Shown: in pieces, positions 2,969 through 25,648 of the stretch
Layout of the letters: each line of letters opens with the position of its first letter
Numbering within the stretch: position 1 is the first letter of the stretch
Source: Thauera sp.
GTDB taxonomy: Bacteria; Pseudomonadota; Gammaproteobacteria; Burkholderiales; Rhodocyclaceae
Direction of reading: 5' to 3'
Assembly (NCBI GenBank): GCA_017302295.1
Contig: JAFLDS010000001.1
Span: forward strand, 1 to 64,000
Length of the DNA: 64,000 nt
The notes under the pieces: model-generated
Database searches by the model: none
What the model was told of the DNA's origin: nothing
Seen by the model: only the letters and a program-made list of their open reading frames with translations
Made by a program: the position numbers and the translations under genes

Positions 2969-4162
2969 TCATTCGTCGAATCCGAATGCTTTGCGGTGCT
3001 CAGCCAGATAAGGCCTATTGCGTTCGTGGACGGTTGTCAGACGCGAGCGAGCGGAAAGTCCGAGCGGCGACAGGTCCTCTGTGCTAAGCGAGGGCTTCAT
3101 GAGGATGTTGCCTGCGTCAGAGAAGGAGATGAGGCCGCGGTCGAAGAGCCGGTCAACTGACGCGGTTAGAAGCAGCCCGTTGTGCTCGTCCAGGCGCTCT
3201 ATGTTGGACGACTTGACCCAAGGTTTCGCATGCGAGGCGATGAGCGCCTCTGAAATCCTGCAACCAGTGACTGCACAACGCCCTTCCCATAGGAGCAGCA
3301 TTCTCTGCCGAAAGGCGCCTTGGCCGATGCGGGCATTTACGAGGGCCTGGCGAGTTGTCTCCGAAACGTTGGAGCATAGGGGGTCGGCGTCGATTTCCTG
3401 TCGAGCGCCGACGGCCCTCAAGTCAACAACAGGCTCATCTGCGAGCCCCAAGTCCTGGAGGGCACGCACGAGCGCTGGTCGCATGGTCCACCGTGCGTCG
3501 CCGCCTGAGCTGTTTGGCTCCAGCGTAGCCAACGCCTCAGTTAGATTCTTGAGTCCCGAGAGGGAGAACTCCTGCGCCACGAGTCCCCCAAGCGAACCGT
3601 ATTGGATGTTGGCGCTGTTATAGGTCTCGTAGCCTCCCAGATGAGCGATTTGCGCCATCGAGAGCGTTTGAGATGGAGCAGACGCGTGTCCGATGAGCAT
3701 GGCGCGTTGATTGTTAGTAATTCGAGGAAGAATGGCATGGAGCGCTTTGAAGTAATCCGCGGCCGTCAATTCCGCCAATCTGACGTAGTCGTCGGCAACG
3801 GGTGGGGCAGCTGGGACCGAGTCTGATAGAGGCGCTTCGTCGATTGGGCGGTAAGGGGCCCCCGTAACCAGGTGCCGTAGCTCGGGTGCAATCCAGTAGC
3901 CGATAATTTCCTTCTCCGCGTGAAGAGATAGACTGTTCCCGCGTTTGCTCTTTGAGTTGTCCAGTGTTTTGACTCGGACACTCTCTCCATCAAAGACGAC
4001 CGCCCGAATGACTTTTGCAATGTCTGATGTGTATTCGCCGCCTCCATGCCGGTCTCGGCCCAATACAAAGCCATATCGATTGGTTTTGCGCTGGTGCTTC
4101 TGGTAGGGATAGCGGTATGCATTATCCCGGTCAATCAAGGCGAATCGCTTGTCGACAGTCAT
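2969..4162 (-). CDS. HNH endonuclease-domain protein, 397 aa
   Basis: The C-terminal part is an HNH_2-type nuclease: CAVTGC (C296, C301), then ASHAKPW with H311, then EHNGLLL (H327, N328) and the DRLFD segment near 337-341. This order of zinc or structural cysteines and catalytic His/Asn is that of HNH proteins found beside restriction and defence genes. The first 290 residues are not recognised; they hold no membrane segment and may bind DNA or recognise modification. DNA cleavage is inferred from the family. The gene is convergent with the upstream helicase and followed on the same strand by the large helicase-nuclease, with a gap of about 270 bases between them. Confidence 0.8.
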   Translation of the reverse strand: MTVDKRFALIDRDNAYRYPYQKHQRKTNRYGFVLGRDRHGGGEYTSDIAKVIRAVVFDGESVRVKTLDNSKSKRGNSLSLHAEKEIIGYWIAPELRHLVTGAPYRPIDEAPLSDSVPAAPPVADDYVRLAELTAADYFKALHAILPRITNNQRAMLIGHASAPSQTLSMAQIAHLGGYETYNSANIQYGSLGGLVAQEFSLSGLKNLTEALATLEPNSSGGDARWTMRPALVRALQDLGLADEPVVDLRAVGARQEIDADPLCSNVSETTRQALVNARIGQGAFRQRMLLLWEGRCAVTGCRISEALIASHAKPWVKSSNIERLDEHNGLLLTASVDRLFDRGLISFSDAGNILMKPSLSTEDLSPLGLSARSRLTTVHERNRPYLAEHRKAFGFDE

Positions 4163-4430: not shown

Positions 4431-7400
4431 TCAGCCGACCGTGACTGCCCTCCATCCCGACGCCTCCGCTGCCTCAGTTGCAATACGAATCGCCTCGTCG
4501 CGCTTAGAGTGTGCAGCTTCGGCGGCCGGAGAGATATTCTTCTCCAGCAATTTGTCTAGGACTGCGTCCACGTGGGCACTTACAGCGGCTGCGGTGTCCT
4601 GGGCTCCTGAAGCGCGCTGGTCTCGATTCGCTTGACGAAGAGCACCAAGGGTGTGGTGCGCCGGAAATGCGCGTGTCCACCATGGCCCGTTCTCGTACTG
4701 CTGTACGGTAATCAGGTAAGCGACGTTGCTCTCAGTAGTCGTCTGGATGCCGTCGCTGGACGCCGACTCTGGTGCGCGAGGAGCATCGGCTTTCGTTGAG
4801 GATTCCCCCGAGGTGTTTTCGCGGTTCGCTTGAGCGATTGCTTCTTCCAAGACGCAGGAAGCGGTGTTGTCGGCCCCTTGGCTATCGCCATTTGCACGCG
4901 TCCAGGTTCGTTTTTCCACCAGAGAGGGCACTCTCTCCATCGCCCCAATCGGCTCAATACCCATAGCCTGAAGCCTTGAGAGGAGCTCCGCGAAAACCTC
5001 GTCCTTCTGTAGCGACCAAGTGGACGCAAAACACCGCCAGAAGACCCAGCCGGCGCGTTCAAGAACGCGCTGGCGGGTCATGTCGTAGCCCCACCGGTCC
5101 GGTCCGTGGTACTCGTCACCATCAAGCTCGATGGCGAGGCGGGCGTCTCCTGCACCTTCGACGACCATGTCAATACGATATGCGCCAGCTCTGACTTGAG
5201 GAATGACCCGATAGCCGCGCTCGGAGAGCCTCGTAAAGACCTCTCGTTCGAATCCCGATTCGCACAGGTCAATGAGGAGTTCTGCAGGTTGGTCGCCGGC
5301 AATGAGCGGCTTGTCAAAATGGCTCAGAAGTGTGAGGCGCAGGTCCTTATCTGACAGGTCTGAGACTTTGACTGAACGGACAAGATACATGCGGTCGCGG
5401 GCGCGGCTTGCAGCAACGTTAAAGCGTTGGTCATACATCGTGCCGGAAAGAGCCTTACAACTCTTGCTGTCGACCACCATCGACAGGAACATGATGTCGC
5501 GTTCGCTCCCCTGGAAGGTCCGTGCGTCGCCGCAGTCGAACCTGCGCCGCAGGAGTTCAGCCGCGTCACACCTCTGACGTACGACGCCATCAATGAGCTT
5601 CGCCTGCTCCATGCCGAGCAGAGAGACAACGCCAATCGTCCGACCCGCGAAGCTTGGGTTATTGAGGATGGCGGCGATTTCCTCGGCAATCGCTTCAGCC
5701 TCCGCCTCATTGCAGCTGTGCTTATCGCGCACGCCGTGAGGAACGTAGATGTCCACAAGGGGAGGGTCGATGCGCTCATACGCGCTGGGAATGCGTAGCG
5801 GTTGGATGTTGTCCTTGTAGAAGGTGCGGTTCGAGTAGGCGATGATGGCCGGGACACAACGGAAGTGCTCCCGGAGCATGACCTGGTGTGCCGCGAAAAC
5901 TCGCGCCGCCAGGTCGTACAGGGACTTCTCTGGCGTCATATCGTTGCCGTACGGCTGCTCGGTCAGGAAGCGTGCCTTGAGTTCATCAATTCGCGTGCTT
6001 GCGATGAACCCGCCATCCGGTGAGACTTGCTTGTCGTCACCGACTACAAGAATCTTTTTCCCACGCAAGATGGCCGGCAGCGCCCAGAGGTCGGATTGGC
6101 TTGCCTCGTCGACGATGATGAGGTCGAAAGCACCGATGTCGGCCGGCATCGCCTCGGAAATCCGAGCGTGACTCATAATCCAACATGGGACGGCGCCGGC
6201 GGCTTCGAACATTGCCTCCCGGGCATCCCGCCGATAGCGCGTGGCGTTCGGGCCGGTTCCCTGACCAATGCGGCGAATGGCGGAGGCGTAGCCTGCCAGA
6301 GCCTGGAGGACTCGATGAGTTGCGTTACGCTTGGTCGAGAGCCAAGCCGACTTCGCAACGAGCTCCTGATAGAGGCGCGCCAATCCGCTTTCCAGGTCTT
6401 TGCGTCGTGCGAATAGCCTGACGAGTTCCTCGCGGGCTTCAATCGACTGCAGATGGGTTCGCACACGTGCCCAGTTCCAGGCCTCTCGCCATGTCGGAGG
6501 AAAGACAGAATCTTCCCCCGCTGCGCCCACGGCTTCGCTCCGAATTCGTTGTGCGAGCTTCTCCCCACCCGCTCGTTCAATGCGGCTAGCGTAGTCTTTG
6601 ACTCGGTACAAGTGGCCGCTGAGCTCCGCGAGGCGCCGAAGTTCCGCCAGCAACTCTGCGTACCGTGCAGCTACACGTTCCGGTTCCAGGTCGACCTTGC
6701 CCAACTCGCGAAGGGCAAACCCTCGGAGCGTGTCGATAATCGGCCCCGATTTGCCCACGAGCTTTTCTTGCAGGGTGGCGAGTTGGACGGTTGCCTGAGC
6801 CAGCGTCGCCTTTGTCAGATGGTCGTCAAGTTGCTCACGGACGGAGCGCAACTCGTTTGAACCGCTGACAATCGCCTTGAGCGGTGGTCGCTGGAACACG
6901 TTCTGCGCTTTTGCCATCAAGTGGGCATCATGCTGCATCGCCAATTTGTGCGCGTTTTTAGCCGCGCTCGCGACCAACTCGATTTTTCTCAGGCTGGCAA
7001 CACCTCCCTCCAGTCGTGGCAGCGAAAGGTCATCCGCAAAGTTGTTCCAGCGAACCTGGAACGAGAGGATTTCCTGGTGCAGCTGCAAATACCGGTCTAC
7101 ATGTTGCCAATCGGCCGTCGACTGAGGGACAAGGCCGGAAACCCGAGCCTCCCCCACATTCTCTTTAGCTTCACCCGCCCCGAATGCGATAAAGCCAAAC
7201 GGCTTGCCTGTCTCGGCGGCGCGCTTAACGGCTTCCTTCGTCTTCTGGCACGTGAGCCCGCGCTCAGGGAAATCGACCGGGCGTTTCAGGAAGCCTGCAC
7301 GAGCTTCGATTAAAGCGTCGATGTCACTGAACAACGACTCCAATGCTTCGCGTTCAGCCTTGAAGTTGACGTCGCGGCACTTCTCTCGGAGAGCGAAGGG

Positions 7401-9389
7401 CCAAGTGTCACCGAGACCCTCCAGACCTGCGACGACTTCGAGTGCAGCGTCAATTCGTGCGAGCAAGTCTTGGGCTGCGCTCAGTACGTCGGGACTACTA
7501 GCCTTGAGGGGAAGAAGCTCGCCGCTGCTGATGCGTGATTCCAGTCGCCGCATTCTGACCAGAATCTCATGCAGTCGAGCGATGTCCGCCACGCTGGGCA
7601 GGGAGTCCGGGGCAGGTAGCTGAGCGCCCACATAGTGGAGGTCGTCGCTGAGGGCCCTTCGGGACTCTCGCAGCTGGCTTGCCTCTTCCTGGGTCAGAGG
7701 GGGCGCATGCTTGGCGTTTAGGTCGATTACATCGTCGAACCAGCCGTAGCGTTCGGTGCCGGAGAGCGCCAACTCTGCCATCTTAGCCGCGCGCAGCGGG
7801 ACTCCGTCGACCTCGATTTCCTCCAACTGCGTTGCGGCTATCTCGTCGACTCGCCGGTCTATGAGCGCGAGCTCCTCGTGAGCGCGGTCAATGGCACTTT
7901 GCCGTTCGGCAATCTCGCGCTGGGTGAGGTCGGGGTTCAGCTGTGAAATCTGGTGCTGTATCGCCTCGATGGATGCCTGGAACTGCCGCACGCCCTCTCG
8001 GTCGCTCGCGAGCAGCGAAACAGTGAGCTTGCGCACACCCTCAGGAATCTTCGACTGCAGCACCTCGAGTGCTTGCTCACCACGCGAAGTCACTAGAACT
8101 CGTTTCCCCCTCGCGAGATAGTGGCAGATGATGTTGGCAATTGTGTGAGTCTTGCCGGTGCCCGGTGGCCCCTGGACGGTCACGCCGGGGGACTGCTCGA
8201 GCTGCTGGATGATGGTGACCTGCTCGTCGTTGTACGGAAGGGGAAAGAACAGCTCTTGCGTACTTGCCGCAGCGCCACTATTTCCCGACCCGCGGCTCGA
8301 GAGTCCGCGGAACCGAATCTCCGAATGGCGAACAGGTTCGTCTGAAGGGGGAGAGACGAGGGACAGAGGGCCCGAGGGGATGTCCGCGCCGGCCTCGAGC
8401 TTTTCCTGAAGGCGTCGCAGGTCGTCAAACAGGAAATTGTTGGACCGCGGACGCGAGAGAAGAACCCACTCGTCCGTCACGATGAGGTGCGAGCCCGGTG
8501 GTGGGACGGGCTCATCCTTTCCCTGCACTTCTCGATATTGCCCGCCGCTATCCATGTTGCCGGCAACGAGCCGCAGGATGTCGCCGTAGCTCGATGCATC
8601 AAAAGGCGTCACTGGCGCGGCTCCAGACCGCTTCAGGTGTTCCTTAGCAGCTATCTCGACTTCGGTCGCTCCGGTGACGGCGCAAGCCGTGAACCCGTCA
8701 AGCTCGACGCGGGTGTCGGTTGCGCGGGGGCGCACCTCCAGCACCATTGAGCGTTCGTCGATGGCGATTTCCAGCGCCTGTGTGAGCAGCGGATATTCGA
8801 ACGCAATCCTGTCTGATTCGACCGGGATGTTCCAACTGGCGACACCCACGCCCCAGACCAACTCTTGGGGTCGTGCGGTCTCTTCCGCCTCGAGCTGGTG
8901 CTTCAGGGCGAAGAGTTCAGCGTACAGCGCAATCGTCTTCCTGCGAGGCCTTTCGCCCTCAGCCCAGGCCTGCCAGATTGGTAAATATGCTTTGAGGCTT
9001 GCATCGGCGGTGGTACGTACCTCCGCGGCTGCTACCTCTAAGGCATCCTCGGGTGTCCGCTCTCGGAGCTTGTTTATGCGCGACTTCACCCCGGCTTCGC
9101 TCACGACTGGAGGGGCGGCGAATGGGTCGGAACCAACAACAAGGAGGTCACTCGTGTGCTCTGGAGGCGCTGGTGGTCTGTGAGCCTCCAATCGTTCAAC
9201 CCGTAACCACGTGTGGTCACCTTCGACCTTGAGGTCGAAGGTGACGCCAGGAAGGCCTACGAGTTCGGTCCTACGACGAAGGAAACCCTTGGCCGCCGAG
9301 AGCCGAAAGCCCTTCGGGTCGACGTTCTTGGCTTGCTCTCGGACGTAATCCAAGAGGTTGTGCAGAAGCTGGCGAGGCGTAGTTTTCAT
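4431..9389 (-). CDS. Giant UPF1-like SF1 helicase fused to a PD-(D/E)XK nuclease, 1652 aa
   Basis: One long protein. An N-terminal unknown region spans about 1-380. Helicase Walker A GPPGTGKT is at 407-414. A long charged, helical insert spans about 450-1050. Motif II DEAS is at 1094-1097 and motif VI NVAASRARDR at 1324-1333. A DUF559/Vsr-like nuclease fold follows, with D1407 and the ELD at 1421-1423. The last 170 residues look like a linker plus a small unknown domain. The layout resembles DUF4011/DUF3320-type helicase-nucleases seen in defence islands, which unwind and cut invading nucleic acid. Target and trigger cannot be read from sequence. It stands alone, downstream of nothing on its strand until the WYL gene. 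Confidence 0.85.
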   Translation of the reverse strand: MKTTPRQLLHNLLDYVREQAKNVDPKGFRLSAAKGFLRRRTELVGLPGVTFDLKVEGDHTWLRVERLEAHRPPAPPEHTSDLLVVGSDPFAAPPVVSEAGVKSRINKLRERTPEDALEVAAAEVRTTADASLKAYLPIWQAWAEGERPRRKTIALYAELFALKHQLEAEETARPQELVWGVGVASWNIPVESDRIAFEYPLLTQALEIAIDERSMVLEVRPRATDTRVELDGFTACAVTGATEVEIAAKEHLKRSGAAPVTPFDASSYGDILRLVAGNMDSGGQYREVQGKDEPVPPPGSHLIVTDEWVLLSRPRSNNFLFDDLRRLQEKLEAGADIPSGPLSLVSPPSDEPVRHSEIRFRGLSSRGSGNSGAAASTQELFFPLPYNDEQVTIIQQLEQSPGVTVQGPPGTGKTHTIANIICHYLARGKRVLVTSRGEQALEVLQSKIPEGVRKLTVSLLASDREGVRQFQASIEAIQHQISQLNPDLTQREIAERQSAIDRAHEELALIDRRVDEIAATQLEEIEVDGVPLRAAKMAELALSGTERYGWFDDVIDLNAKHAPPLTQEEASQLRESRRALSDDLHYVGAQLPAPDSLPSVADIARLHEILVRMRRLESRISSGELLPLKASSPDVLSAAQDLLARIDAALEVVAGLEGLGDTWPFALREKCRDVNFKAEREALESLFSDIDALIEARAGFLKRPVDFPERGLTCQKTKEAVKRAAETGKPFGFIAFGAGEAKENVGEARVSGLVPQSTADWQHVDRYLQLHQEILSFQVRWNNFADDLSLPRLEGGVASLRKIELVASAAKNAHKLAMQHDAHLMAKAQNVFQRPPLKAIVSGSNELRSVREQLDDHLTKATLAQATVQLATLQEKLVGKSGPIIDTLRGFALRELGKVDLEPERVAARYAELLAELRRLAELSGHLYRVKDYASRIERAGGEKLAQRIRSEAVGAAGEDSVFPPTWREAWNWARVRTHLQSIEAREELVRLFARRKDLESGLARLYQELVAKSAWLSTKRNATHRVLQALAGYASAIRRIGQGTGPNATRYRRDAREAMFEAAGAVPCWIMSHARISEAMPADIGAFDLIIVDEASQSDLWALPAILRGKKILVVGDDKQVSPDGGFIASTRIDELKARFLTEQPYGNDMTPEKSLYDLAARVFAAHQVMLREHFRCVPAIIAYSNRTFYKDNIQPLRIPSAYERIDPPLVDIYVPHGVRDKHSCNEAEAEAIAEEIAAILNNPSFAGRTIGVVSLLGMEQAKLIDGVVRQRCDAAELLRRRFDCGDARTFQGSERDIMFLSMVVDSKSCKALSGTMYDQRFNVAASRARDRMYLVRSVKVSDLSDKDLRLTLLSHFDKPLIAGDQPAELLIDLCESGFEREVFTRLSERGYRVIPQVRAGAYRIDMVVEGAGDARLAIELDGDEYHGPDRWGYDMTRQRVLERAGWVFWRCFASTWSLQKDEVFAELLSRLQAMGIEPIGAMERVPSLVEKRTWTRANGDSQGADNTASCVLEEAIAQANRENTSGESSTKADAPRAPESASSDGIQTTTESNVAYLITVQQYENGPWWTRAFPAHHTLGALRQANRDQRASGAQDTAAAVSAHVDAVLDKLLEKNISPAAEAAHSKRDEAIRIATEAAEASGWRAVTVG

Positions 9390-9617
9390 CGGTCGTCAGT
9401 GATGCAAATGAGCTTTAATTCTAATGCGATGTAACTGAGCACTGAACAGGTGTCACCGGTCATTCATAAGCTCCTGCTGCGGGTTATCACTCCCGAACGG
9501 GTGCCGTCGAGATGTTGTCGATGTGTCGAAACGCGGGGGGCCGTCCAGTCTTCTCCTGCGCTGTGGCGGGCGTGCTTGCCGAACAGCAGCCCATGAAGCA
9601 CTTGGGCAAACGTTGAG

Positions 9618-10538
9618 TTATCGCTCCGAGAATTTAGCCGTAGTTCCGTCGAGGTTGCGCGCGACCTCGACCTCGTTCTTTAAGACGATTTGCTGCGCCT
9701 GCGGCGTGACGGCCTCGCACCCTTCGAACCCCAGATGTTTGAGCACGTAAAAGAGCAGCGCCTGGCGGCAATCGAGGCGTGCTTCTCCGTTCTGCATGCC
9801 GTAATCGAGCTCGACCACCTTGCGCTGCGCCGGCGGAAGGCCTGGGTGCGGTGCAATGACGAGGGTAACTGGTGTCTGCCAAGCGAGGTCATCTTGCGAT
9901 GAAACCGTCGAAGCGGAGCCAGCACGAATGCTCTGCATTCGTGCAATTACAAAGTCCCGGAACGACTGTCGTGTGTGGCAAAACGCACGGACATGCCACC
10001 GAAAACCATCAAACCCCAACGCGTGTGGCGACAGCGTGCGCGCCTGGGGTTCATCGCTCGTGAGGGATTGGTAAGTCACCCTGACGGTTTCACGGTTCCG
10101 AATCGCATGCAGCAATCGACCGAGCGTCTCTGCCGAGACAACGCGTGCCGGGATGGGTGTCAGTCCGACCGGCGGTGCCCATCCGATGAACGAGCTGCCT
10201 TCCGATGCGAGTCCTGAAGCGGAAATGAGGAGGTCGTTTAGGTAACGGAGGGGGTTGTCTGTGTTGTACAGCGGAGTGAAGTTGGTGCCGGACAGGTAAG
10301 TGCGCGCGCTCGCGTCGTAGCGGATGTTGTCCGGCGCAAGCTCGGTGTAGCGCGCGATGTCGAGAGACGCTTGCGGCACCGAGATGCCGAAGAACTCGAT
10401 GAGGTCCGACCGATTGAGATGGCCATCCCAACGCAAGCGGTAGTCGATGAATTCCAGCCGACGCTCCTGACTCCAGCGCCCGGAGGCGCGAGAAGGGCTT
10501 GGTGCGGCTGAGCCGGTGGGCGAAGTGCGGGCAGTCAT
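9618..10538 (-). CDS. WYL-domain transcriptional regulator of BrxR/CapW type, 306 aa
   Basis: An N-terminal winged helix (about 23-80, ERRLEFIDYRLRWDGHLNR then the recognition helix SVPQASLDI) is followed by a WYL domain (about 130-210, with LGFDGFRWHVRAF) and a C-terminal WCX-like extension. Proteins of this build repress phage-defence operons as dimers on palindromes and may release on binding a nucleotide-like ligand. The gene is divergent from the SMC operon, and a perfect 13+13 bp palindrome lies between them, 20 bases from its own start, so it probably represses both itself and that operon. Family and role are fairly sure; the ligand is unknown. Confidence 0.85.
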   Translation of the reverse strand: MTARTSPTGSAAPSPSRASGRWSQERRLEFIDYRLRWDGHLNRSDLIEFFGISVPQASLDIARYTELAPDNIRYDASARTYLSGTNFTPLYNTDNPLRYLNDLLISASGLASEGSSFIGWAPPVGLTPIPARVVSAETLGRLLHAIRNRETVRVTYQSLTSDEPQARTLSPHALGFDGFRWHVRAFCHTRQSFRDFVIARMQSIRAGSASTVSSQDDLAWQTPVTLVIAPHPGLPPAQRKVVELDYGMQNGEARLDCRQALLFYVLKHLGFEGCEAVTPQAQQIVLKNEVEVARNLDGTTAKFSER

Positions 10539-10558
10539 GGGGGAAGTCTAGCGGGGAT

Positions 10559-10586
10559 ATAAAAACTATACGAGTATAGTTTTTAT
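10559..10586. promoter_or_regulatory. Perfect palindromic operator between the WYL gene and the SMC operon
   Basis: Arm ATAAAAACTATAC (10559-10571), a 2-base centre GA, and arm GTATAGTTTTTAT (10574-10586) are perfect inverted repeats in an AT-rich patch within GC-rich DNA. Long AT-rich palindromes in a divergent promoter are the known binding sites of BrxR/CapW WYL regulators. A TACAAT that could be a -10 for the plus-strand operon lies at 10590-10595. Confidence 0.75.
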
Positions 10587-10647
10587 GCCTACAATGCCGT
10601 TGTGATTTCGCCGATAGTCCCTGCTGTCCCGGATTCCTCCGCTCGCT

Positions 10648-12153
10648 ATGGACCAAGCTGCTGAACTGCCACCTATCGAAGAGACTGACTCCGCGCCAGA
10701 CTGTGTGGTGGAGCTCCTTGACCTCAACAAACAGCAGCGCAACCTCCTGCTGCTGCGCCCGCTGTTCCAGCTCGAAATCAACAAGCACAGCATCGGGACT
10801 GAGTCCGCGGGAGCGGTACCGCTCTTCAAAGACCTCGATACGCACTATTTGGTCCTCACGGCGCTGGACCAGATGATGGAAGGCACGACCATCCACATGG
10901 GCTGTACGCCCGCCGAGCTGATTGATGGATTGATGGCCATTGCATCGGTGATGAAGCCCGGTCTCACCAGTGCGCAGGCACGCCGGGTGGCAGAAGCCAT
11001 CCTCGACACCCTCGACAACAAGGCCAATGCGTATCGCGAGTTTGCCTTCGACTTCTTCGATGGACGCGTTCGTCAGACGAGAACCGTCCGCTTCCGGCTA
11101 GTCAGCTACGAGCCGGACCTTGAGGACGTCTATCGCTATCGACCGACGGCCGAGGGCTATCTCGTGTATCTCGGCATGCTCGACTTGGCTCCCGAGGATG
11201 CGCAGGAGCTCATGGAGAAGATGCTCGACTTGCTGGTGCAGCGCGGGCGCTTCGATGCGGCACTCGAAATCGCCAAGCGGGCACGCACGCTTTCGCTCGA
11301 GTACCGGCAATTCATCCGTGACCGGCTGATGCAGGCATACCGGGCACCCGGTTCGGTGAACTGGACGCGAGAGGTAGCGGGGAAGCTCAAGGACGCCCGC
11401 GCCCACGTCGGTGCGCGTCAGGCCGAGGACCAGCGCATGACGGAGGCAGTACGGGAGGCCCTGCAGTCCGCTGAGGAAGCGAAGGCGCGGCAGGACCTCT
11501 CGCAACTTCTGAAGACGTTGCAGGGTGCCAGCGTGATTCGCGCCAATCTGGTGAGCGACATCACGGTTGCTCCGGACAAGTTCCTGCTGGCGCAGCGTGC
11601 GCTCTTCCGAGCCCGCCGCCCGTCTGGGCTCCCGGACCTCGAAACTCGCCTCCTGCCTGACCTGCTCAAGCTCGGCAGCGAGGTGTTGGCTGAGCATGCG
11701 GATGACGCCATCAGCGCGGTGTATCCGGTCAAATGGCCCAAGGTCTTTGGACTTAACAGTGTCTTCGGACTGCTGCTGGAGCGGCGCACCGAGGCGGTCG
11801 AGCCTGATGATGACGAGGGCGAAATCGAGCCCTTCGTGCCACTGCCCGAGCAGTTCTCCGCAGCACTTATCAGCGAGGTGCAGGCGTGGGTGACCCGCAG
11901 GTTTGCCGAAGTCGGCGCTTGCAGTGTCGATGCGCTGCTGGCCATGGCCGAGGCCGAAGGCCTGGACCGCACCAGGCTGCGCTGTCTCGTGCTCATGATG
12001 TTCCGCAGCTACTCGCAGGCCGAAACGCTGTTCCCCGCGATGCGTGCTGAGGCCGACGGGCGGTTCGAACGCGATGTTGCGCAAGGTTCGAACCTACTCT
12101 TCTCCCCACTGGACGAGACTCGCCATGACGGACCCAACCAGTACCGCGCGTAA
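10648..12153 (+). CDS. Wadjet/Mks-like kleisin-position protein (JetA-like), 501 aa
   Basis: The first gene of a four-gene SMC operon. It has no signal peptide or membrane segment and is mostly helical and acidic-basic, with a long charged helix around 230-300 (KLKDARAHVGARQAEDQRM onwards). In Wadjet and MksBEF systems the first gene encodes the kleisin-like subunit that bridges the SMC heads. This protein has that position and size, but I do not recognise the DUF3375 (type I) or DUF2397 (type II) signature in it. The assignment therefore rests on operon order and length. Its 3' end overlaps the next gene by 29 bases, so the two are translationally coupled. Confidence 0.65.
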   Translation: MDQAAELPPIEETDSAPDCVVELLDLNKQQRNLLLLRPLFQLEINKHSIGTESAGAVPLFKDLDTHYLVLTALDQMMEGTTIHMGCTPAELIDGLMAIASVMKPGLTSAQARRVAEAILDTLDNKANAYREFAFDFFDGRVRQTRTVRFRLVSYEPDLEDVYRYRPTAEGYLVYLGMLDLAPEDAQELMEKMLDLLVQRGRFDAALEIAKRARTLSLEYRQFIRDRLMQAYRAPGSVNWTREVAGKLKDARAHVGARQAEDQRMTEAVREALQSAEEAKARQDLSQLLKTLQGASVIRANLVSDITVAPDKFLLAQRALFRARRPSGLPDLETRLLPDLLKLGSEVLAEHADDAISAVYPVKWPKVFGLNSVFGLLLERRTEAVEPDDDEGEIEPFVPLPEQFSAALISEVQAWVTRRFAEVGACSVDALLAMAEAEGLDRTRLRCLVLMMFRSYSQAETLFPAMRAEADGRFERDVAQGSNLLFSPLDETRHDGPNQYRA

Positions 12154-12859
12154 CGCTGCACGCCTCGTCTATAAGGCCGTCCAGCCGGCTCTCTCGCCGG
12201 TCAATGACGCCCAGTACCGCGAACTGCTCGACCTCTATCGCGCCGAGCCAAGCTTCGCAGCTATGGTCGAGGAGGTCGCCGACGGACTTGAGCTAGCTGT
12301 ACTCGATTTCAGCGAGCGGGGCTTGGTGGTCGTCCCGGCCTCGCGGGAAAGCAAATTCGCCATGCGCATTACGGATTTGCGCGCAAACCTCAAGCCCGAC
12401 CAGAAGGCAGGGCTCGTGCTTGCCCATGTGGCGGTGGCGGCGGTGTTCTATCCGACGACGAGCGGCCTCGAAGACGACCGTTTCGTGCCACCGCCTGTGA
12501 GCCTCGCGCAGTTCCGCGACACCTTGCTGGCGCTGGCGCACCGCTTGAAGGACGAAGTCGGGGAGGCCGACCTTAAGGACATCCCGCTTGAGCTCGCTCC
12601 CGGGTGTGAGCTCATTTGTTCGCTACCGTCGATGGTGCCGGGTGCTCAGCGAGCGTCCCCGGCCTCCGTGACCGGACTTATTGGCCTCGCGCTGCTCCAC
12701 CTTGTGCAAGGCGGTCTGGTGCGCGTCGACCGGGAGGCATCCGATGAGATGCAGGTGACCTATACGCCTACTCACCGCCTCCAGGTGCAGCTTCGCGAAC
12801 TCACGCTGAGGCGCCTCTTCGAAATCGCCCAGAGCGCTACTACGGAAGGACGGGCCTAA
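12125..12859 (+). CDS. Wadjet/Mks-like KITE-position protein (JetB-like), 244 aa
   Basis: The second gene of the SMC operon. ATG at 12125 was chosen because it lies inside the end of the first gene, which is usual for this operon type; an ATG at 12044 would give a frame-shadow N-terminus. The protein is small, soluble and helical, with a likely winged-helix stretch near the C-terminus (SVTGLIGLALLHLVQGGLVRVDRE). In Wadjet systems JetB is the KITE (MukE-like) dimer that binds the kleisin and DNA. Two bases separate its stop from the SMC gene. Function is inferred from position and fold pattern. Confidence 0.65.
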   Translation: MTDPTSTARNAARLVYKAVQPALSPVNDAQYRELLDLYRAEPSFAAMVEEVADGLELAVLDFSERGLVVVPASRESKFAMRITDLRANLKPDQKAGLVLAHVAVAAVFYPTTSGLEDDRFVPPPVSLAQFRDTLLALAHRLKDEVGEADLKDIPLELAPGCELICSLPSMVPGAQRASPASVTGLIGLALLHLVQGGLVRVDREASDEMQVTYTPTHRLQVQLRELTLRRLFEIAQSATTEGRA

Positions 12860-12861
12860 TC

Positions 12862-15800
12862 ATGCAGAAGATTTCACGCATCTATGTTGGCGGCTATGGC
12901 GTTGATATGGCGTGGTACGACGGGGTGACCTTCGACCTGACGGACCCGGATACAGGTGAGCCCACCGACACCATCCTCAATCTCGAAAACGGTGGCGGGA
13001 AGACGACACTGTTGAGTTTTGTGTTCTCGTGCTTTGACACCCCGGTGGAGCGCTTCCTCAAGCACATCCAGAACAAGAACCATCGCTTCGGCGAGTATTT
13101 CGCACGCGATGGCCAGCCCGGCATCATCCTCATCGAGTGGGTGATGCCGCCTCGTACGGCGGGCGGGCAGCCCTACCGGCTGGTCCTTGGACAGGCGGTC
13201 GCGGTGAGGACGAGCGCGGAGCGCGATGAAGTGGAGCGCATCTTCTTTAGCTTCGAGGCTAACAGCAACTTGACCTTTGAGTCGGTGCCGGCGCCGAAGC
13301 TGAACTGGGCGCCGTTGAGCAGCATGCCCGAGCTCTCACGCTGGATTCATGAAGCGCACAAGGTCTCGTCAGACTTCTTCCACACCAAAGTGCAGCATGA
13401 CTGGCAGAAGCACTTGCGTGACGAGCGTCTCATCGACGTCGACATGCTGAAGCTACAGGTGAACTTCTCCGCACAGGAGGGCGGTATCGATACCGGCTTC
13501 CTGACGTTCAACTCCGAGCCGGAATTCATTCGCAAGTTTTTTAGCCTCACCCTCGATGAGGGGCTGGCGGCATCCGTACGCCAAAGCGTGGTCGATGTCT
13601 GCGACAAGCTTCGGCGCAAGCCTCATTTGCAGAAGTGCCTGACCGAGCTCACCCGGCTACGTACGTCGTTGCTTACCTTCAACGAGGCTGCGGCCGCCTA
13701 TACGGTCTCCCGCGGCGCTCAGGACACGGTGCTGCGTCGTGGGGCGGGCCTCGTTCGCGGCCTTGAGGCGATGGCTATCGAATTGAGAACGGCGGAGCGC
13801 GATGCCGTCGCCGCGCAGGAGGCTCAGGCCGTCCTGGCTAAGGAGAAGGAGCGCAAGTCGACGGAGCACGCGGGCGAGGTCACCACGTTGAGGCTGCTGC
13901 AGCTCACGCGAGCTGTTGAGACCGCCACGGCGCATAGGGAGTCAGCACAACGGGTCGTCGGCGCCGCGCAGCTGACGCAGCACTGGGTGAAGGCGGCCAA
14001 GGCTCGCACCGAGATTGCCGCCTCCGAGCTGCGCTTGGCCGAACTGGAAGCGAGCGCCGCAGCCGAACGGCAAGCGCTTGAACCTTGGCGGGATAGGGCA
14101 GAAACGCAGGGGGCGCTGCTGCGCCATGTGCTTCATAAGGCCGAGCAGGCGCTGCGCGACCAGGCGAGTGCAGCAGGTAACGAGGAGGCGCTGGCGGGAC
14201 GGCGGCTTTCCACACTCGCGCAAGAGTTGCGCGAGCTCGATGCCGCCGTGCGCAAGCTCGACGCGGAGGAGGCGCGTCTGAACGAAGCTGAAAACGCTTA
14301 CGCCATCGCGCTCGCACAGCTGGTGAACGAAGGCGTGCTCGAAGAGGGCGAGTCAACTTCGGTGGCCTTGTCACGCTACGCTGAGCTCGCCGTGGGGAAG
14401 CGCAGCGAGGAGCAACAGTTGCGCACCCGAGCGGAGACGCTTCGTGAGCAGGCGCGTGATGCACGTCGGCATGCCAAACAGGCAGAGGTCAATGCCGCCA
14501 AGTCCGAAGGCAACATCGTTCAGTGCGAGAAGTTCCTGGCTGAGGGTGAAGGAGAGCGTGAGCAGCTATCGCAGTTGCCGATTCTACGGCTGGTGGCCGA
14601 GGCTGACACGGCAGACCCCGAGTCGCCGGCTTTGTTGCCAGCCTTGGAGCAACTCATGCTCGCCGAGGAACGTGCGGTGGCAAATCAGGCCGTGCAGCTG
14701 TCGACGCTTGAAGCAAGCCGCAGCGCGATTCTGGCGACCGGCGTCGCAGGGGGCTCCCGCGACGTCGATGAGGTCGTCATGCGTCTGCGCGAACGAGGCG
14801 TGAAGTCGGCCAAGCCTTTCAACACTTATCTTGCCCAAGCCCTCCCAGACGCAAAGGTGGCCCGCAACTTGGTCATGAGCAACCCAGCGCGCTTCTTGGG
14901 GGTCTCAGTCGCGTCTGGCGAACTCACACGCGCCCGTGAACTCGTCGGCCAAGCGTTGCCGATTGATACCCCGGTCATGGTGTCTGTGTCCGCGTTGGAG
15001 CCCGAGGTCGCCAGCGAGGACCGCTTCGTTCTGCCCGCGGCCGATGATGCTGCGTTTAATCAGGAGGCCGCCCAAGTCCTGCTCCAGCAACTCGATGCAA
15101 AGCTTGTCATCGCTGAACGGCAGCGTGATGCACACGCAGCGCGTCACAAGGAGGCGGTTACCGCCAAGGAGCAACTACTGGCGTATGCCAAGCGTTTTGG
15201 TGGTGGTGCGCTGGCTCGTGCCCGAATGGAGCTTGAGCGCTTACATGCCGAGTCGGCGGCTGCGCTGGCGCGCGCTCAGATGTTTGCGGCGCAGGCTGAC
15301 GAGTATGACCAGCATGCAGAAGCGGAAAGCCAGTCGGCTGCTGATTGCGCTCGTGCTGCGGACGCCGCTGATATGCACGGTAGAGCGGTGCGCCGATTTG
15401 ACGAGATGCACGACGCCGCGCGACCAGGCCGACTCGCCCGACTGCAGACTCTTTCTGCGGAGCGCGCTGAGCAGGAGGCGCACCGGGGTCAAATCGAGAA
15501 CGAACAGGCGGCGGTGGCCATAGCGAAGGAACGTGCCTTTCAGAGCAAGGTGGAGAGTGGTGCCAAGGCGGGGGACTTGCTCAAAGAGCGACTCGCCGTA
15601 ACTTACTGCAGAGACGGCTTCCCGGCTGAGGAGTGGCTGCAGGCACAGCCGCACACGCTGGAGGGGTTACGCGCCCTCTATTCTGACGCCGAGCGGGTCT
15701 ACGCCACCGAAGCAAATGCGCGATTGGGCGTGCTCCAGTATCAAGAGGAACTGGCGAGCAAGGAGCTTTCCACCCGCGAGCGAGCTTTTGCAGCCGAGTT

Positions 15801-17196
15801 CGCAGAGGTGCCTCTGAGTGAGTACGAGCCTTACCTCGCCGTTCAGGATTTCCCGGCGCAACTCCAGCAGTGTGCCGAAACGCTCGCTCAGGCTCAGTCT
15901 GCGCTGAAGGTAGCAGAGCAGGAAGAAGCGGCTGCTGTGACGAAACGTACAGTGTTTCAGGAGGGTAACCGCCAGGTCGAGACCGCCACCGCCGACATGG
16001 TGGCCCTCGATGACGCGGCACTCGAGGAAACGCTGGCCCGTACTCTTGTGGCCCAACAAGAGGCAAGTGACGCAGCAAAGGCCGCGCGCCTTGAGAGTGA
16101 GCGCCACAGGGACATTGCGCGCGAGGCTGGCGCGAGGGCGGCTAGCGCTGAGCAAGCGTCGGGCGGCCTAAAGGCGGCGCTGGGACTGCAGGACTTCTTT
16201 GACGCGGAGGCGGAAACGCCGGACAGCGCATTCGTGGAGCAGGCCAACGCTCTCATCGCTGATTTCAATCGCAGGCGCAACGAGTCGGAGGGGGCGCGCA
16301 AAGTCGCGAGCAAGGCCTTCGAGCGACTGAAGAGCGACGCGGCTACGCCCGCCATGCAGGAGGTGGAGCCTGACATCGCCGGCCAGATGCTCCGGAACGA
16401 ATTTGAAGCGGCCTGTGCAGATAGCGCGAGGCTGCTCGAGGGCCTCGATGACCGAATCGGCACCACGCAGTCGAGCCTCGACGGTATGCGGGAGGATTTC
16501 GAGGCGTGTCTGGGCGAACTGCTCAATCTCACGAGCAGTGCCGTCACGCTGCTCACATCGGCCTGTAACAACAAGCGTGTGCCTGTCGGCGCCCCCTACG
16601 TGGGCGGTAAATCAATTTTAAAGATGCGTGCCCGTTTCCAGGAGCTTGGCAACGACGTGCGTCGGCAGCAACTCGGTAACTACCTAGACGAGCTGATTGA
16701 TTCCACGGTTGTACCAATGAAAGGGGCCGAGCTCGTCGCTAACGCGCTGCTCCGCGTCCACGGCAAGCCACTCGGGCTGCAGGTGCTCAAGATGGTGCCG
16801 GATGAGGCTCTGCAGTATGTCGCAGTGGACAAGATTCAGAACTCGGGGGGCGAGGGGGTGGTGATGGCGATGTTTCTCTACATGCTCATCAACCAGTTAC
16901 GTGCTGAGACCCAGGCGAAGCTCAAGAAGGCCGGTGGTGGGCCGCTCATCCTCGATAACCCGTTCGCGAAGGCCACTACGCCGACGCTATGGCAAGCACA
17001 GCGATTGCTGGCGCAGGCAATGGATGTGCAGCTCATCTTCGCCACCGCACTACCTGACTACAACACCGTGGGCGAGTTCGGTCGCTTCGTGCGCTTGCGC
17101 AAGGCCGGCAAGAATTCGAAGACTGGTCGTTGGCATCTCGAAGCGGTCGACTTCAAGCTCAACGAGCAGCGTTCGGCTGTCGAGGCCATGGCATGA
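12862..17196 (+). CDS. SMC-like ATPase of Wadjet/MksB type (JetC-like), 1444 aa
   Basis: Walker A NGGGKTT is at 43-49, the ABC signature NSGGE at 1327-1331, and Walker B LILDNP with D1365. The two ATPase halves are separated by about 1270 residues of Ala/Glu/Arg-rich coiled coil with a hinge-like break near 610-740. This is the SMC/MukB/JetC layout: ATP-driven loop extrusion on DNA. The NGGGKTT and ILDNPFA motifs match the JetC/MksB branch rather than chromosomal SMC. At 1444 residues it is longer than the type I JetC proteins I know of (about 1100). Its stop overlaps the next start (ATGA). Confidence 0.88.
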   Translation: MQKISRIYVGGYGVDMAWYDGVTFDLTDPDTGEPTDTILNLENGGGKTTLLSFVFSCFDTPVERFLKHIQNKNHRFGEYFARDGQPGIILIEWVMPPRTAGGQPYRLVLGQAVAVRTSAERDEVERIFFSFEANSNLTFESVPAPKLNWAPLSSMPELSRWIHEAHKVSSDFFHTKVQHDWQKHLRDERLIDVDMLKLQVNFSAQEGGIDTGFLTFNSEPEFIRKFFSLTLDEGLAASVRQSVVDVCDKLRRKPHLQKCLTELTRLRTSLLTFNEAAAAYTVSRGAQDTVLRRGAGLVRGLEAMAIELRTAERDAVAAQEAQAVLAKEKERKSTEHAGEVTTLRLLQLTRAVETATAHRESAQRVVGAAQLTQHWVKAAKARTEIAASELRLAELEASAAAERQALEPWRDRAETQGALLRHVLHKAEQALRDQASAAGNEEALAGRRLSTLAQELRELDAAVRKLDAEEARLNEAENAYAIALAQLVNEGVLEEGESTSVALSRYAELAVGKRSEEQQLRTRAETLREQARDARRHAKQAEVNAAKSEGNIVQCEKFLAEGEGEREQLSQLPILRLVAEADTADPESPALLPALEQLMLAEERAVANQAVQLSTLEASRSAILATGVAGGSRDVDEVVMRLRERGVKSAKPFNTYLAQALPDAKVARNLVMSNPARFLGVSVASGELTRARELVGQALPIDTPVMVSVSALEPEVASEDRFVLPAADDAAFNQEAAQVLLQQLDAKLVIAERQRDAHAARHKEAVTAKEQLLAYAKRFGGGALARARMELERLHAESAAALARAQMFAAQADEYDQHAEAESQSAADCARAADAADMHGRAVRRFDEMHDAARPGRLARLQTLSAERAEQEAHRGQIENEQAAVAIAKERAFQSKVESGAKAGDLLKERLAVTYCRDGFPAEEWLQAQPHTLEGLRALYSDAERVYATEANARLGVLQYQEELASKELSTRERAFAAEFAEVPLSEYEPYLAVQDFPAQLQQCAETLAQAQSALKVAEQEEAAAVTKRTVFQEGNRQVETATADMVALDDAALEETLARTLVAQQEASDAAKAARLESERHRDIAREAGARAASAEQASGGLKAALGLQDFFDAEAETPDSAFVEQANALIADFNRRRNESEGARKVASKAFERLKSDAATPAMQEVEPDIAGQMLRNEFEAACADSARLLEGLDDRIGTTQSSLDGMREDFEACLGELLNLTSSAVTLLTSACNNKRVPVGAPYVGGKSILKMRARFQELGNDVRRQQLGNYLDELIDSTVVPMKGAELVANALLRVHGKPLGLQVLKMVPDEALQYVAVDKIQNSGGEGVVMAMFLYMLINQLRAETQAKLKKAGGGPLILDNPFAKATTPTLWQAQRLLAQAMDVQLIFATALPDYNTVGEFGRFVRLRKAGKNSKTGRWHLEAVDFKLNEQRSAVEAMA

Positions 17197-18203
17197 GTGA
17201 CACGTTCCTTGAGAGGTTGCGGGCCGGGCGCCGCAAGCGCGTGCCGCTCGAGGATGTCCGGCGGGCGTTCTTTGATGCACATCCGGAGACTCTCAACAGT
17301 CCTGGTCGCCTAGCGCTCTTGCTTGAGCGCCTGAGGGGACTTGAGGAGGTGGGCGCGATTGCACTCCCGGCGTCAGGCAGTTGGGAGAAGTTTGGCAATC
17401 CTCCTCTGCCTAACTGGATTCAGGTCACGCGTGAGTCGCCCCTCGCGACACTGGTGGATTACGCCGCTGTACCGTGGGTGCCGGAGCTGGGTTTCTGGCC
17501 GGAATTGAAACCGTTGGCGTTGGAGGCCGCCCTGGCCATCAACGACTTTCTGCTGCGCCGGCGTAACACGCTCACGATGGTCCCCATCAAGGAGCGCTCC
17601 CTCGAAATCTTCGGTGATGAGAAGCGCCTCGATGCGTTACGCGCCAGTGGCGGCAACAGTCTTTTCGGCGGACGGCTCCCCTTGTCGGTCCTGGGGGCAT
17701 TCGTGGTCCCCTCACCCTTGCCTTATCGCATCGCTGACGCGGTAGGCCAGCCTGTTCTTGTTGTTGAGAATCACAACAGCTTCTGGAGCTTCGGTGAGTG
17801 GAACCAGCAGGCTAGGCGCTACGCCGCCGTGGTGTACGGTTCTGGCCTAGCTTTTCAGGGCACCGCCAACGCGCTTGAGCAGGTGTTGGGCGAGGTTGGC
17901 GGGGTGGGGGCCCTTTACCTTGGGGACCTCGACCCGACTGGTGTGCGAATCCCGCTGGAGTTCAATCGAATGCGTGGTGAGGGCAGAACACATGTTGCCC
18001 CTGCGCTTGAGCTGTACGCCTGGCTTTTGGCACATGGTCGTCGCCGGCCGCTTGAAGGGTGGGACGGCGGGGAGAAATCGTCGGCGGCCGACTGGCTTGG
18101 CGCGGAGCTCGGTGGTGACGTGCTCCAGCTATGGCGGGAAGGATGCTGGATTCCGCAGGAGTCCCTGGGCTTCGAGCAACTCTCAGGGAAGAATGAGCTG
18201 TAG
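17193..18203 (+). CDS. Wadjet nuclease subunit, Toprim/DUF2220-like (JetD-like), 336 aa
   Basis: The C-terminal Toprim-like domain shows VVENHNSF (E192) and LYLGDLDPTG (D245, D247). These are the acidic metal-binding residues of the topoisomerase VI-like JetD/DUF2220 nuclease that cuts plasmids trapped by the SMC motor. The N-terminal 160 residues would be the arm that binds the SMC complex. ATG at 17193 overlaps the SMC stop by four bases. Presence of this subunit separates the operon from plain chromosome-organising MksBEF and makes anti-plasmid defence the most likely role. Confidence 0.82.
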   Translation: MSDTFLERLRAGRRKRVPLEDVRRAFFDAHPETLNSPGRLALLLERLRGLEEVGAIALPASGSWEKFGNPPLPNWIQVTRESPLATLVDYAAVPWVPELGFWPELKPLALEAALAINDFLLRRRNTLTMVPIKERSLEIFGDEKRLDALRASGGNSLFGGRLPLSVLGAFVVPSPLPYRIADAVGQPVLVVENHNSFWSFGEWNQQARRYAAVVYGSGLAFQGTANALEQVLGEVGGVGALYLGDLDPTGVRIPLEFNRMRGEGRTHVAPALELYAWLLAHGRRRPLEGWDGGEKSSAADWLGAELGGDVLQLWREGCWIPQESLGFEQLSGKNEL

Positions 18204-18250
18204 TCGGGGACAGGGGACGTTGCCTGCTGTGTTCAGTTACGTTGCCCCGC

Positions 18251-18988
18251 TCAGCGTGCGTCAGAACAGTTTGGCGACGCAGGCCCATGCACGATGGGCA
18301 ACACGTCCTTGAACGTCCCGTGTATTCGGCGAACAGGCTCCATGTCCATAGGCTGTCCCGTCAGAATCGACAGGAGTTGTGCGGTGAGCGCGACCACTGC
18401 GTTGGAGTTTCGGACAACGTCGTAGATGAGCTGTGGCGGGTAGCCCGTCAAGGTCCTCGACAAGGGGTGGAGACCGCCGTGGGTATAGCTATTCAGTGCT
18501 TTCCAGGCGACCTCTTTGTACTCGCGAAGCTGTGCCACGATGCCTGATGGCGCATCTGGAGCGGCTTCCAGCTCCTTGAGCATGTCTGCCAGCCCCAAAC
18601 CCTCGTTTGCTCGCTTGGCGCTCTCCACGGTAAGTGGGTCGGAAAGTTTGTCGACCCATGCGTCGCTCGCGGCGTGCAGGAGCCATATGCCCCTCACAAG
18701 ACTCTCGTACTGTGGGCGCGCCAGGGCAATCGCCGATGAGCAAAGCCCCTGCTGGAAAAGCATGAAGGCGCTGACGGCATGTTCGAGCGATATGAGACCG
18801 GATTGGAATGCGGTCAAGAAGCGTGCTTGCGGCACGGGCTGAAGCGAACTGACGTGCCGATGAACTGTTTCATGGAACCCGGCGGTACGTTCGAGGAGGT
18901 GAAGGAGTGCTTCTTCGGTCATGTAGGGGCGTTGACGTGGATAGATGGGTTTGCGAGCCTCGGGCATGCTAACCGAGTTATTTGACAC
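18251..18988 (-). CDS. Hypothetical protein resembling DUF5677/DUF6988 HEPN-like families, 245 aa
   Basis: A soluble, mostly helical protein. The core LARPQYESLVRGIWLLHAA (about 88-106) is the pattern seen in DUF5677 and DUF6988 proteins, where an Arg sits before a Glu in a helical bundle. These families are often placed near HEPN proteins and occur in defence islands. No RxxxxH RNase motif is clear, so RNase activity is not claimed. The gene converges on the SMC operon (about 47 bases between stops) and is divergent from the DUF429 gene. The family link is from memory of motifs. Confidence 0.5.
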   Translation of the reverse strand: MSNNSVSMPEARKPIYPRQRPYMTEEALLHLLERTAGFHETVHRHVSSLQPVPQARFLTAFQSGLISLEHAVSAFMLFQQGLCSSAIALARPQYESLVRGIWLLHAASDAWVDKLSDPLTVESAKRANEGLGLADMLKELEAAPDAPSGIVAQLREYKEVAWKALNSYTHGGLHPLSRTLTGYPPQLIYDVVRNSNAVVALTAQLLSILTGQPMDMEPVRRIHGTFKDVLPIVHGPASPNCSDAR

Positions 18989-23071: not shown

Positions 23072-25424
23072 ATGACCGAAGCCTCCGCGTCCAATCCTCT
23101 GGCGGCCCTCCAGGTGGAAAACGCCCGCCTAGTCGCGTTGCTCGAGGCTCACGGCATCGAGTGGCGCCTGCCGGCTGCGACTCAGGCTCCCTTGGAGACC
23201 GGACACGAGCGTATCCCCAAATCGACCGAGGAAAAGCTCGCGCTCTTCCGCCGTCTGTTCCAAGGGCGGGCGGATGCTTTCCCGGTTCGATGGGAAAGTC
23301 AGTCAACGGGCAAATCGGGCTACTCGCCTGCGTGTGCGAACGACCGACGGCCGGGGGTGTGCCAGAAGCCTGCAGTGAAGTGCGGCGATTGCGCCCATCG
23401 CCAGTTGCTACCAGTCACGGACAAGGTCATCTTCGAGCACCTTGCCGGAAAGCGTACGCTGGGGGTCTACCCGCTTCTCGCCGACGACACTTGCAACTTC
23501 CTTGCGGTCGATTTCGATGAAGCCGAATGGCAGGAGGATGCGAAGGCCTTCGCCCGTTCCTGCCGTGAACTGGGTGTCCCGGCGGCGCTCGAAATTTCGC
23601 GCTCGGGGCAAGGCGCTCATGCGTGGGTATTCTTCCGTTCGCGTGTGTCAGCAAGGGATGCACGCCGGCTGGGCACAGCGCTTATCAGTCACACCTGTGC
23701 TTCGACGCGGCAGCTGCGGCTCGCCTCCTACGACCGCTTGTTTCCGAATCAGGTTGCCGAAAGGGGGTTTCGGCAACCTGATTGCGCTTCCCTTGCAGAA
23801 GCAGGCGCGAGAGCGTGGCTGCACGGTTTTCGTCGATGAAGCGCTGCGGCCTTACCCGGACCAATGGGGCTACCTCTCGGCGCTTGTGCGAATGGCCCCG
23901 GAGGACATCGAGGCCACCATTTTGCGGGCCACGGGCGGTGCGCAGCCGCTCGACGTCACCTTCATCGATGACGAGGACAACGCCAACCCGTGGCAGAAGT
24001 CCGCGCCAAGTGCGCGGACCGTCGCCGGCCCTCTTCCAGAGTCGTTGAAGGTGACGCTGGGAAACCTCATTTATGTCGAGAAAGCCGGGCTGTCCCAGCC
24101 GCTGGCCAACCGGCTGATTCGACTCGCCGCGTTTCAGAACCCCGCGTTCTATCAGGCGCAGGCCATGCGCTTTTCCGTGTGGGACAAACCTCGCGTCATC
24201 GGATGCGCCGAGAACTTTCCGCGCCATATCGGTTTGCCGCGTGGATGCCTTGATGCGGTGGCCGCACTACTGAAGGAAAACGGTGTGCGGATGGAGCTCC
24301 AAGACGAGCGCTACGCCGGTAGCGCCATCGGCATTTCTTTCATGGGCGCGCTGCGCATCGACCAAGAGGCCGCGGTCGCCGCCATGCTGCACCACGACAC
24401 CGGTGTGCTTTGTGCGCCGACGGCGTTTGGCAAGACAGTGACGGCCGCAGCGATGATTGCCCGTCGCGGCGTCAACACGTTGATTTTGGTCCATCGCACC
24501 GAGCTCCTGAAGCAATGGCAGGCCCGACTTACCGCATTTCTCGAGGTAGGAAAGGGCGACATCGGCGTCATCGGCGGTGGCAAGAGCAAGCCGAGCGGGC
24601 GCATCGACATCGCGGTGATGCAGTCGCTGTCCCGCGCCGGCGAGGTCAGTCCCGTCGTCGAGAACTACGGCCAGGTCATCGTCGACGAATGCCATCATTT
24701 GGGCGCCGTGTCCTTTGACCTATTGCTGCGGAGAACCAAGGCCCGCTATGTCCTTGGCCTGACGGCGACACCGACGCGGCGCGACGGGCAGCAGCCCATC
24801 ATCTTCATGCAATGCGGTCCCATCCGTTACGCCGCCGCTACGCCTGAAGGTGCCCCGAGGGACCTCGAGGTCATCCCAAAGATGTTGTCGACCTCGTTCG
24901 TGTTGCCCGACGACGCGGGTATTCAGGACGTTTTCCGGTGCGTTGCGAACGACGCACAGCGCACAGCAATCATTGCCGGCGAGGCGCGCCAGGTGTTCGA
25001 AGAGGGCAGGAAGGTGTTGATTCTGACCGAACGCGCCGACCACATCGATGCAATACGCGACAGCCTGTCAGAGACCGGTGAGGCCGTGTTCGTGTTGCAC
25101 GGAAGGATGTCGCGAAAGCAGCGAGCCGCGGTGATGACTGCACTCGAAGCGCTTCCTGCGGATGCACCGCGGATTCTGCTTGCCACAGGGAAACTGGTGG
25201 GCGAGGGCTTCGACCATCCGCCACTGGATACGCTGTTGCTTGCGATGCCCATCTCGTGGAAGGGAACGCTACAGCAGTATGCCGGTCGGCTGCATCGGGA
25301 GCACGATGGCAAGACGGATGTTCGAATTCTCGATTTTGTCGACACCGGCCATCCAGCCCTGTTGCGGATGTGGGACAAGCGTCAGCGCGGGTATAGGGCG
25401 ATGGGATACAGGATTTCGAGCTGA
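23072..25424 (+). pseudogene. Frameshifted TOTE-type AEP primase plus SF2 helicase
   Basis: The first frame (23072 to about 23752) carries an archaeo-eukaryotic primase domain: FLAVDFDEAEW (metal-binding DFD) and SRSGQGAHAWVFF. The second frame (about 23752-25424) continues with LPKGGFGNLIALPLQ and an SF2 helicase: Walker A-like PTAFGKT, DECHH, LTATPTRRD, and a C-terminal helicase domain with GEGFDHPPLD. Together they make the AEP-helicase protein of TOTE conflict systems. The join needs a +1 shift at 23752-23760, where family members read NQDTLPKGG or NQDTMPKGG and five bases are missing. A perfect 16-bp hairpin sits on the break. Probably inactive, unless the shift is a sequencing error or is bypassed. 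Confidence 0.82.
23747..23783. repeat. Perfect 16-bp inverted repeat at the frameshift
   Basis: Arm AATCAGGTTGCCGAAA (23747-23762), loop GGGGG (23763-23767), arm TTTCGGCAACCTGATT (23768-23783). It is perfect over 16 pairs inside coding sequence, which is very unusual in a helicase gene. The left arm is where the family residues Asp-Thr have been lost. Confidence 0.9.
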
Positions 25425-25634: not shown

Positions 25635-25648
25635 GTCAGGAGAGCGTG

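Follow-up and report, generated by a model that had tools for sequence, protein, structure and literature searches.

A type III Wadjet operon beside a divergent CapW-type repressor gene in Thauera sp.

Is the operon at positions 10648-18203 of a Thauera sp. contig (JAFLDS010000001.1, assembly GCA_017302295.1) a new kind of Wadjet system, and is it switched by the WYL gene that diverges from it? Both ideas stem from a sequence-only reading of this DNA, which proposed a new Wadjet subtype with switchable expression. The window analyzed here is the whole stretch of 64,000 nucleotides (positions 1 to 64,000 of the contig). With a probability of nearly nine in ten, we consider the locus to be a type III Wadjet with all its genes (JetABCD), controlled by a CapW-type repressor that is encoded divergently, with a mechanism of repression and cutting that would follow the characterized family members. 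The operon is composed of four consecutive open reading frames (ORFs) on the plus strand. The third encodes a 1444-aa protein resembling structural maintenance of chromosomes (SMC) ATPases and the fourth a Toprim-type protein, as the sequence-only reading had described and as both the ORFs and the profile matches confirm:

10648..12153, plus strand: jetA (type III), 501 aa; PDLC00569 JetA3, E 2.8e-219
12125..12859, plus strand: jetB (type III), 244 aa, revised start; PDLC00573 JetB3, E 0.0042; hhalign to Rhodococcus JetB, 98.8% probability
12862..17196, plus strand: jetC (type III SMC), 1444 aa; PDLC00578 JetC3, 1727.6 bits
17193..18203, plus strand: jetD (type III Toprim nuclease), 336 aa, revised start; PDLC00594 JetD3, E 4.2e-97; PF09983

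The PADLOC type III models for JetA, JetC and JetD are matched strongly, and the order jetA-jetB-jetC-jetD is the canonical order of Wadjet type III; both uphold the Wadjet identity proposed earlier. PF09983 (JetD_C) matched JetD with 25.9 bits at a cutoff of 22, and this score and that of JetD3 were computed on the jetD frame from 17130. The SMC had been regarded as unusually long, in a comparison with type I JetC. The type explains this: its length is normal for type III, because the matched JetC3 models span 1451-1486 positions.

A new subtype could be argued from the PADLOC models, which match JetB weakly (E 0.0042), and from JetA, JetB and JetC having no Pfam or NCBIfam match above cutoffs. 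The strong JetA3, JetC3 and JetD3 matches in canonical order stand against it; we rate a new subtype as very unlikely and dropped it on the strength of these three matches. The sequence-only reading had set the first two proteins against type I and II signatures and did not consider type III. A lack of any match to an existing Wadjet type is refuted for JetA by its strong match; for JetB, a weak match is backed by profile comparison. Two JetB3 models each recognized four of the six aligned JetB members when E values up to 1 were admitted, the best being 5.3e-05. When the 6-member JetB alignment was compared with a Rhodococcus JetB using hhalign, a probability of 98.8% over 209 columns was obtained. 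The JetA alignment matched the truncated JetA beside this Rhodococcus JetB with 97.7% probability over 303 columns, and the JetC and JetD of that Rhodococcus operon place it in type III. The weak direct JetB match counts against the assignment, as do the AlphaFold models of JetA (mean pLDDT, the predicted local distance difference test score, 42.9) and JetB (40.7), which were built from two-sequence alignments (window and the related locus L002) and are too poor for a fold search that would address the kleisin fold of JetA and the KITE fold of JetB. Sequence comparison with solved structures gave a best E of 0.69 for JetA, taken as chance, and no match up to E 1 for JetD. By gene order, strong JetA, JetC and JetD models and SMC length, the operon is an intact Wadjet of the already known type III, from which it differs in the weakly matched JetB and in the CapW-type gene that lies divergent from the operon here and in one relative (L012).

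The start of jetB is most likely the ATG at 12125 and that of jetD the ATG at 17193, because these align with the annotated starts of the corresponding genes in Polaromonas naphthalenivorans (L010). With the revised starts, the overlap amounts to 29 bases for jetA and jetB and to 4 bases for jetC and jetD, and there is none between jetB (end 12859) and jetC (start 12862). Of the earlier description as four overlapping genes, the four consecutive ORFs therefore stand, and the overlap stands at two of the three junctions. None of the four genes contains an internal stop. Ratios of nonsynonymous to synonymous substitution (dN/dS) against L012, the one relative compared, were 0.062 for JetA, 0.081 for JetB, 0.170 for JetC and 0.133 for JetD, and 0.091 and 0.069 for the flanking CapW and DUF6988 genes; these values are rough, given the large divergence at synonymous sites (dS 0.78-1.87). 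Judged by this comparison, the four jet genes and capW are under purifying selection, and the jet genes are more than chance ORFs because they combine intact frames with low dN/dS. In JetD, the residues E192, D245 and D247, which we take to be the catalytic Toprim acidic residues, are invariant in all seven aligned sequences; two of them lie in the following motif:

17922..17936, plus strand: jetD Toprim GDLDP motif (D245, D247), invariant in 7/7 aligned sequences

SMC, kleisin-position and KITE-position genes would also be expected of a MukBEF/MksBEF-like condensin that serves chromosome maintenance rather than defense. Such condensins are not known to have a nuclease partner and show a broad housekeeping presence. 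Here, jetD is present and constrained, the surroundings resemble a defense island and the occurrence is patchy, so that we hold this reading to be extremely unlikely. Across whole genomes, with the own genome counted in every set, PDLC00569 occurs in 4/297 at the family level and 1/398 at the phylum level, PDLC00578 in 2/399 at the order level and 1/369 at the class level, and PDLC00579 in 3/398 at the order level, with E only about 5e-4 for two of the three. A search for JetC relatives with six short peptide patterns retrieved none in viral contigs and one in genome contigs (L002). No JetC relatives were found in phages; plasmids yielded 8 records, of which a single one reached a query coverage of at least 80%.

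If the operon is a type III Wadjet, the second question is whether its neighbor controls it. The presence of a WYL gene next to the operon, on the minus strand at 9618-10538 and divergent from jetA, is confirmed. Three features of the regulatory region are relevant:

9618..10538, minus strand: capW-like WYL repressor gene, 306 aa; PF13280, E 9.1e-17; Stenotrophomonas maltophilia CapW 7tb6, E 2.4e-83
10559..10586, no strand: perfect inverted repeat (arms of 13 bp, spacer of 2 bp), located 20 bases from the start of capW and 61 from that of jetA; probable CapW operator
10590..10595, plus strand: TACAAT, possible jetA -10 box; weak, seen by eye, promoter scan negative

Among solved structures searched with phmmer, the WYL protein matched CapW (7tb6) at E 2.4e-83, BrxR (7t8k) at 2.1e-43 and the WYL protein 7qfz at 1.3e-33. 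The CapW residues that were mutated to disrupt DNA binding, Arg32, Ser42, Gln45 and Ser47 (passages of PMC9122588), correspond to R43, S53, Q56 and S58, as counted on the CapW alignment. On these grounds, the divergent gene is assigned to the CapW family of repressors. Like the CapW of the S. maltophilia cyclic-oligonucleotide-based anti-phage signaling system (CBASS), its product carries a WYL domain and the R/S/Q/S DNA-binding residues, and a palindrome lies in the promoter region; unlike that CapW, it neighbors a Wadjet instead of a CBASS. BrxR and 7qfz share the WYL family and an inverted-repeat operator and are the weaker matches compared with CapW. BrxR homologues have been reported to co-localize within 50 kb with Wadjet among other systems (PMC9122601). 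The association of WYL regulators with Wadjet is thus already published, and the passages of PMC9122601 concerned are silent on Wadjet type and adjacency. A protein similar to CapW occurs in 685 plasmid records. In the six neighborhoods inspected, picked from 40 listed, it lies next to CBASS (L019), a ThiF-family gene (L018), bacteriophage exclusion (BREX) genes (L021, L022) or UvrD and PD-(D/E)XK genes (L017, L020).

The inverted repeat is probably the docking site of the CapW-like repressor. A perfect arm of at least 13 bases arose in 0 of 2000 first-order Markov sequences modeled on the 109-bp intergenic region (largest arm 9), and the 53 contigs of the own genome contain no second match to the palindrome when as many as 3 mismatches are allowed. 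To score sites at other loci, the 24 specified bases of the window's own palindrome were used as reference, with 1000 Markov samples each. The L012 site, at the same distance, has 1 mismatch and that upstream of a BREX-linked WYL gene on a Paracoccus plasmid (L021) has 5; no sample was as good in either case. In L012, the promoter scan identified a -10 box in the capW direction (ending at 10837) that overlaps the palindrome (L012 10822-10853), with 1 found versus 0.1 expected. L012 shares the entire capW-jetABCD-DUF6988 block with window positions 9652-18922, at 78.7% nucleotide identity over 9285 columns. Beyond the block, three short matches were the only ones between window positions 1-30000 and the 18-kb L012, all at least 3.6 kb away. 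The block therefore looks like a cassette that may have moved as a unit, because nothing nearer than 3.6 kb outside it matches L012. The combination of CapW family membership and a palindrome in the divergent promoter region supports the reading of a WYL switch, as proposed earlier.

The most likely mode of action is that CapW keeps jetABCD repressed and that DNA damage or infection lifts this repression, after which JetABCD would cut small circular DNA. In this model, carried over from characterized family members, a CapW dimer would occupy the palindrome in the capW-jetA intergenic region and keep transcription low. DNA damage or infection would raise the CapW ligand, which is single-stranded DNA in characterized family members; CapW and BrxR are described as repressors that are released when single-stranded DNA binds to them or when DNA is damaged (passages of PMC13373217). 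The ligand-bound repressor would leave, allowing transcription of jetABCD. JetC, together with JetA and JetB, would then act as a loop-extruding SMC motor that reels in circular DNA, and circles small enough for full extrusion would be cut by the Toprim nuclease JetD. The cutting of circular DNA by JetABC and JetD and a total-extrusion model are described in passages of PMC10586767. What was computed for this operon itself is which genes it contains, the families to which they belong, their conserved motifs, the palindrome and the purifying selection. If CapW controls the operon, an anti-plasmid system would share its switch with CBASS and BREX, and an inducible plasmid defense would be open to direct experiment.

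Several results weigh against such control. Among six related loci searched by tblastn (L002, L010-L014), CapW is matched in L012 (76% identity) and L013 (34% identity) only, and neither of two distant type III loci (L015, L016) has a CapW match (0/2). By this count, CapW is not a fixed partner of type III Wadjet. L013 has no comparable site (11 mismatches of 24, 375/1000 samples as good), and the regions upstream of the WYL genes of L017-L020 and L022 have no clear one (9-10 mismatches, 31-160/1000 as good); the CBASS-linked L019 has a different palindrome with 12-bp arms and one mismatch. As judged from these loci, the site is not general to the WYL family, because L013, L017-L020 and L022 lack a clear match. 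Finally, a sigma-70 promoter scan of the window's intergenic region reported none.

An alternative reading is that the WYL gene is an unrelated defense-island neighbor and that the Wadjet is expressed constitutively. It finds support in L002, L010, L011 and the incomplete L014, which have jet genes and no CapW match in the fetched stretch (the L011 contig is 12.7 kb long, and jetC is only partial in L014). In L010, the operon is preceded by a gene annotated as a type I restriction endonuclease, in L002 by a similar ORF (by eye) and in L011 by Gabija genes. The divergent arrangement and the palindrome are, however, both kept in L012, in a block at 78.7% nucleotide identity. Constitutive expression is therefore regarded as unlikely, and control by the CapW-type repressor is preferred.

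The relatives differ in their setting. The jetABCD of P. naphthalenivorans (L010) resembles the operon in all four genes (56-69% identity) and differs in lying on a 172-kb plasmid (pPNAP03), downstream of a type I restriction gene and with no CapW match. L016 is located on a 77-kb linear plasmid, and Wadjet operons on plasmids have already been noted (passages of PMC10586767). In L011, from the same genus, Gabija gajA and gajB (7855-12125) lie directly upstream of jetA. L014 (9518-12420) carries jetC in pieces beside a jetD match and appears to be a decayed or partial copy.

The ATPase motifs of JetC were located by motif scan:

12967..13032, plus strand: jetC Walker A region (NLENGGGKTT); motif scan
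16831..16887, plus strand: jetC ABC signature region (NSGGEG); motif scan
16945..16965, plus strand: jetC Walker B (LILDNPF), with N1366 at the usual glutamate position; motif scan and alignment of 8 JetC

The Walker B motif reads L-D-N-P in all eight aligned JetC proteins (window, L002, L010-L013, L015, L016), with asparagine replacing the usual glutamate. The D-N-P was first spotted with a pattern built around DNP and subsequently confirmed pattern-free by aligning the eight proteins; the partial L014 was excluded from this and from the JetA and JetB comparisons. JetC3 is the best model for all eight. The JetC of L015 also matches the LmuB models of Lamassu, more weakly than JetC3, as the sole such case among six relatives scanned.

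Within the eight sequences sampled, the Walker B glutamate is thus not defining for type III. In MksB, a type I relative, this glutamate is catalytic, and the change E1042Q impairs the ATPase (passages of PMC10123090), whereas the window protein and the seven other JetC3-matching proteins (7/7) read D-N-P; this comparison rests on the published MksB residue, the alignment itself consisting of eight type III JetC. LmuB, likewise an SMC-like defense ATPase with a replaced Walker B glutamate, carries a natural change to glutamine (passages of PMC10586767), unlike the asparagine found here within a full-length Wadjet JetC. The type III ATPase may differ from that of type I, because asparagine stands where type I has its hydrolysis glutamate, and this counts against the preferred explanation. 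The shared D-N-P raises the question of how type III hydrolyzes ATP, since cleavage of circular DNA by JetABCD is stated to need a working JetC ATPase (passages of PMC10586767). According to the same 2023 review, most work concerns type I, and types II and III await characterization. Two narrow queries of open texts retrieved no paper that deals with this residue in type III. The altered Walker B is the one unexpected feature of an otherwise ordinary system. A broader proposal, in which CapW keeps a damage-inducible type III Wadjet off until single-stranded DNA arises, so that the cell would tolerate plasmids when unstressed and destroy small circles under stress, and in which a type III SMC with a naturally altered Walker B runs a motor cycle unlike that of type I, is conceivable but less likely than not.

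The operon is followed by a convergent gene:

18251..18988, minus strand: DUF6988 gene (PADLOC candidate PDC-S52), convergent to jetD; PF22491, E 8.1e-64; PDLC05034, E 3.7e-75

DUF6988 is found at the same place in L012 (2487-3134), within the shared block, and had no match in the other five loci searched. Further genes in the window are:

132-2456: UvrD-like helicase
2969-4162: HNH nuclease
25601-26286: FitA-like/PIN pair

An SF1 (superfamily 1) helicase of 1652 aa with an MTES_1575 nuclease domain (4431-9389) resembles the candidate defense system PDC-S37 and, far below its curated cutoff, ProA. Positions 23442-25424 encode the end of an AEP-TOTE primase domain and helicase domains, with a PADLOC PrimPol match. 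Rfam (gathering scores) and tRNA scans found nothing. The surroundings read as a defense island on what may once have been a mobile element, because helicase, nuclease, AEP-TOTE, FitA-like/PIN and serine recombinase genes flank the operon; the recombinase, identified with Pfam, is at 27258-28601. In L013, a recombinase-like ORF of 536 aa (16333-17943) was recognized by eye from the sequence near jetABCD.

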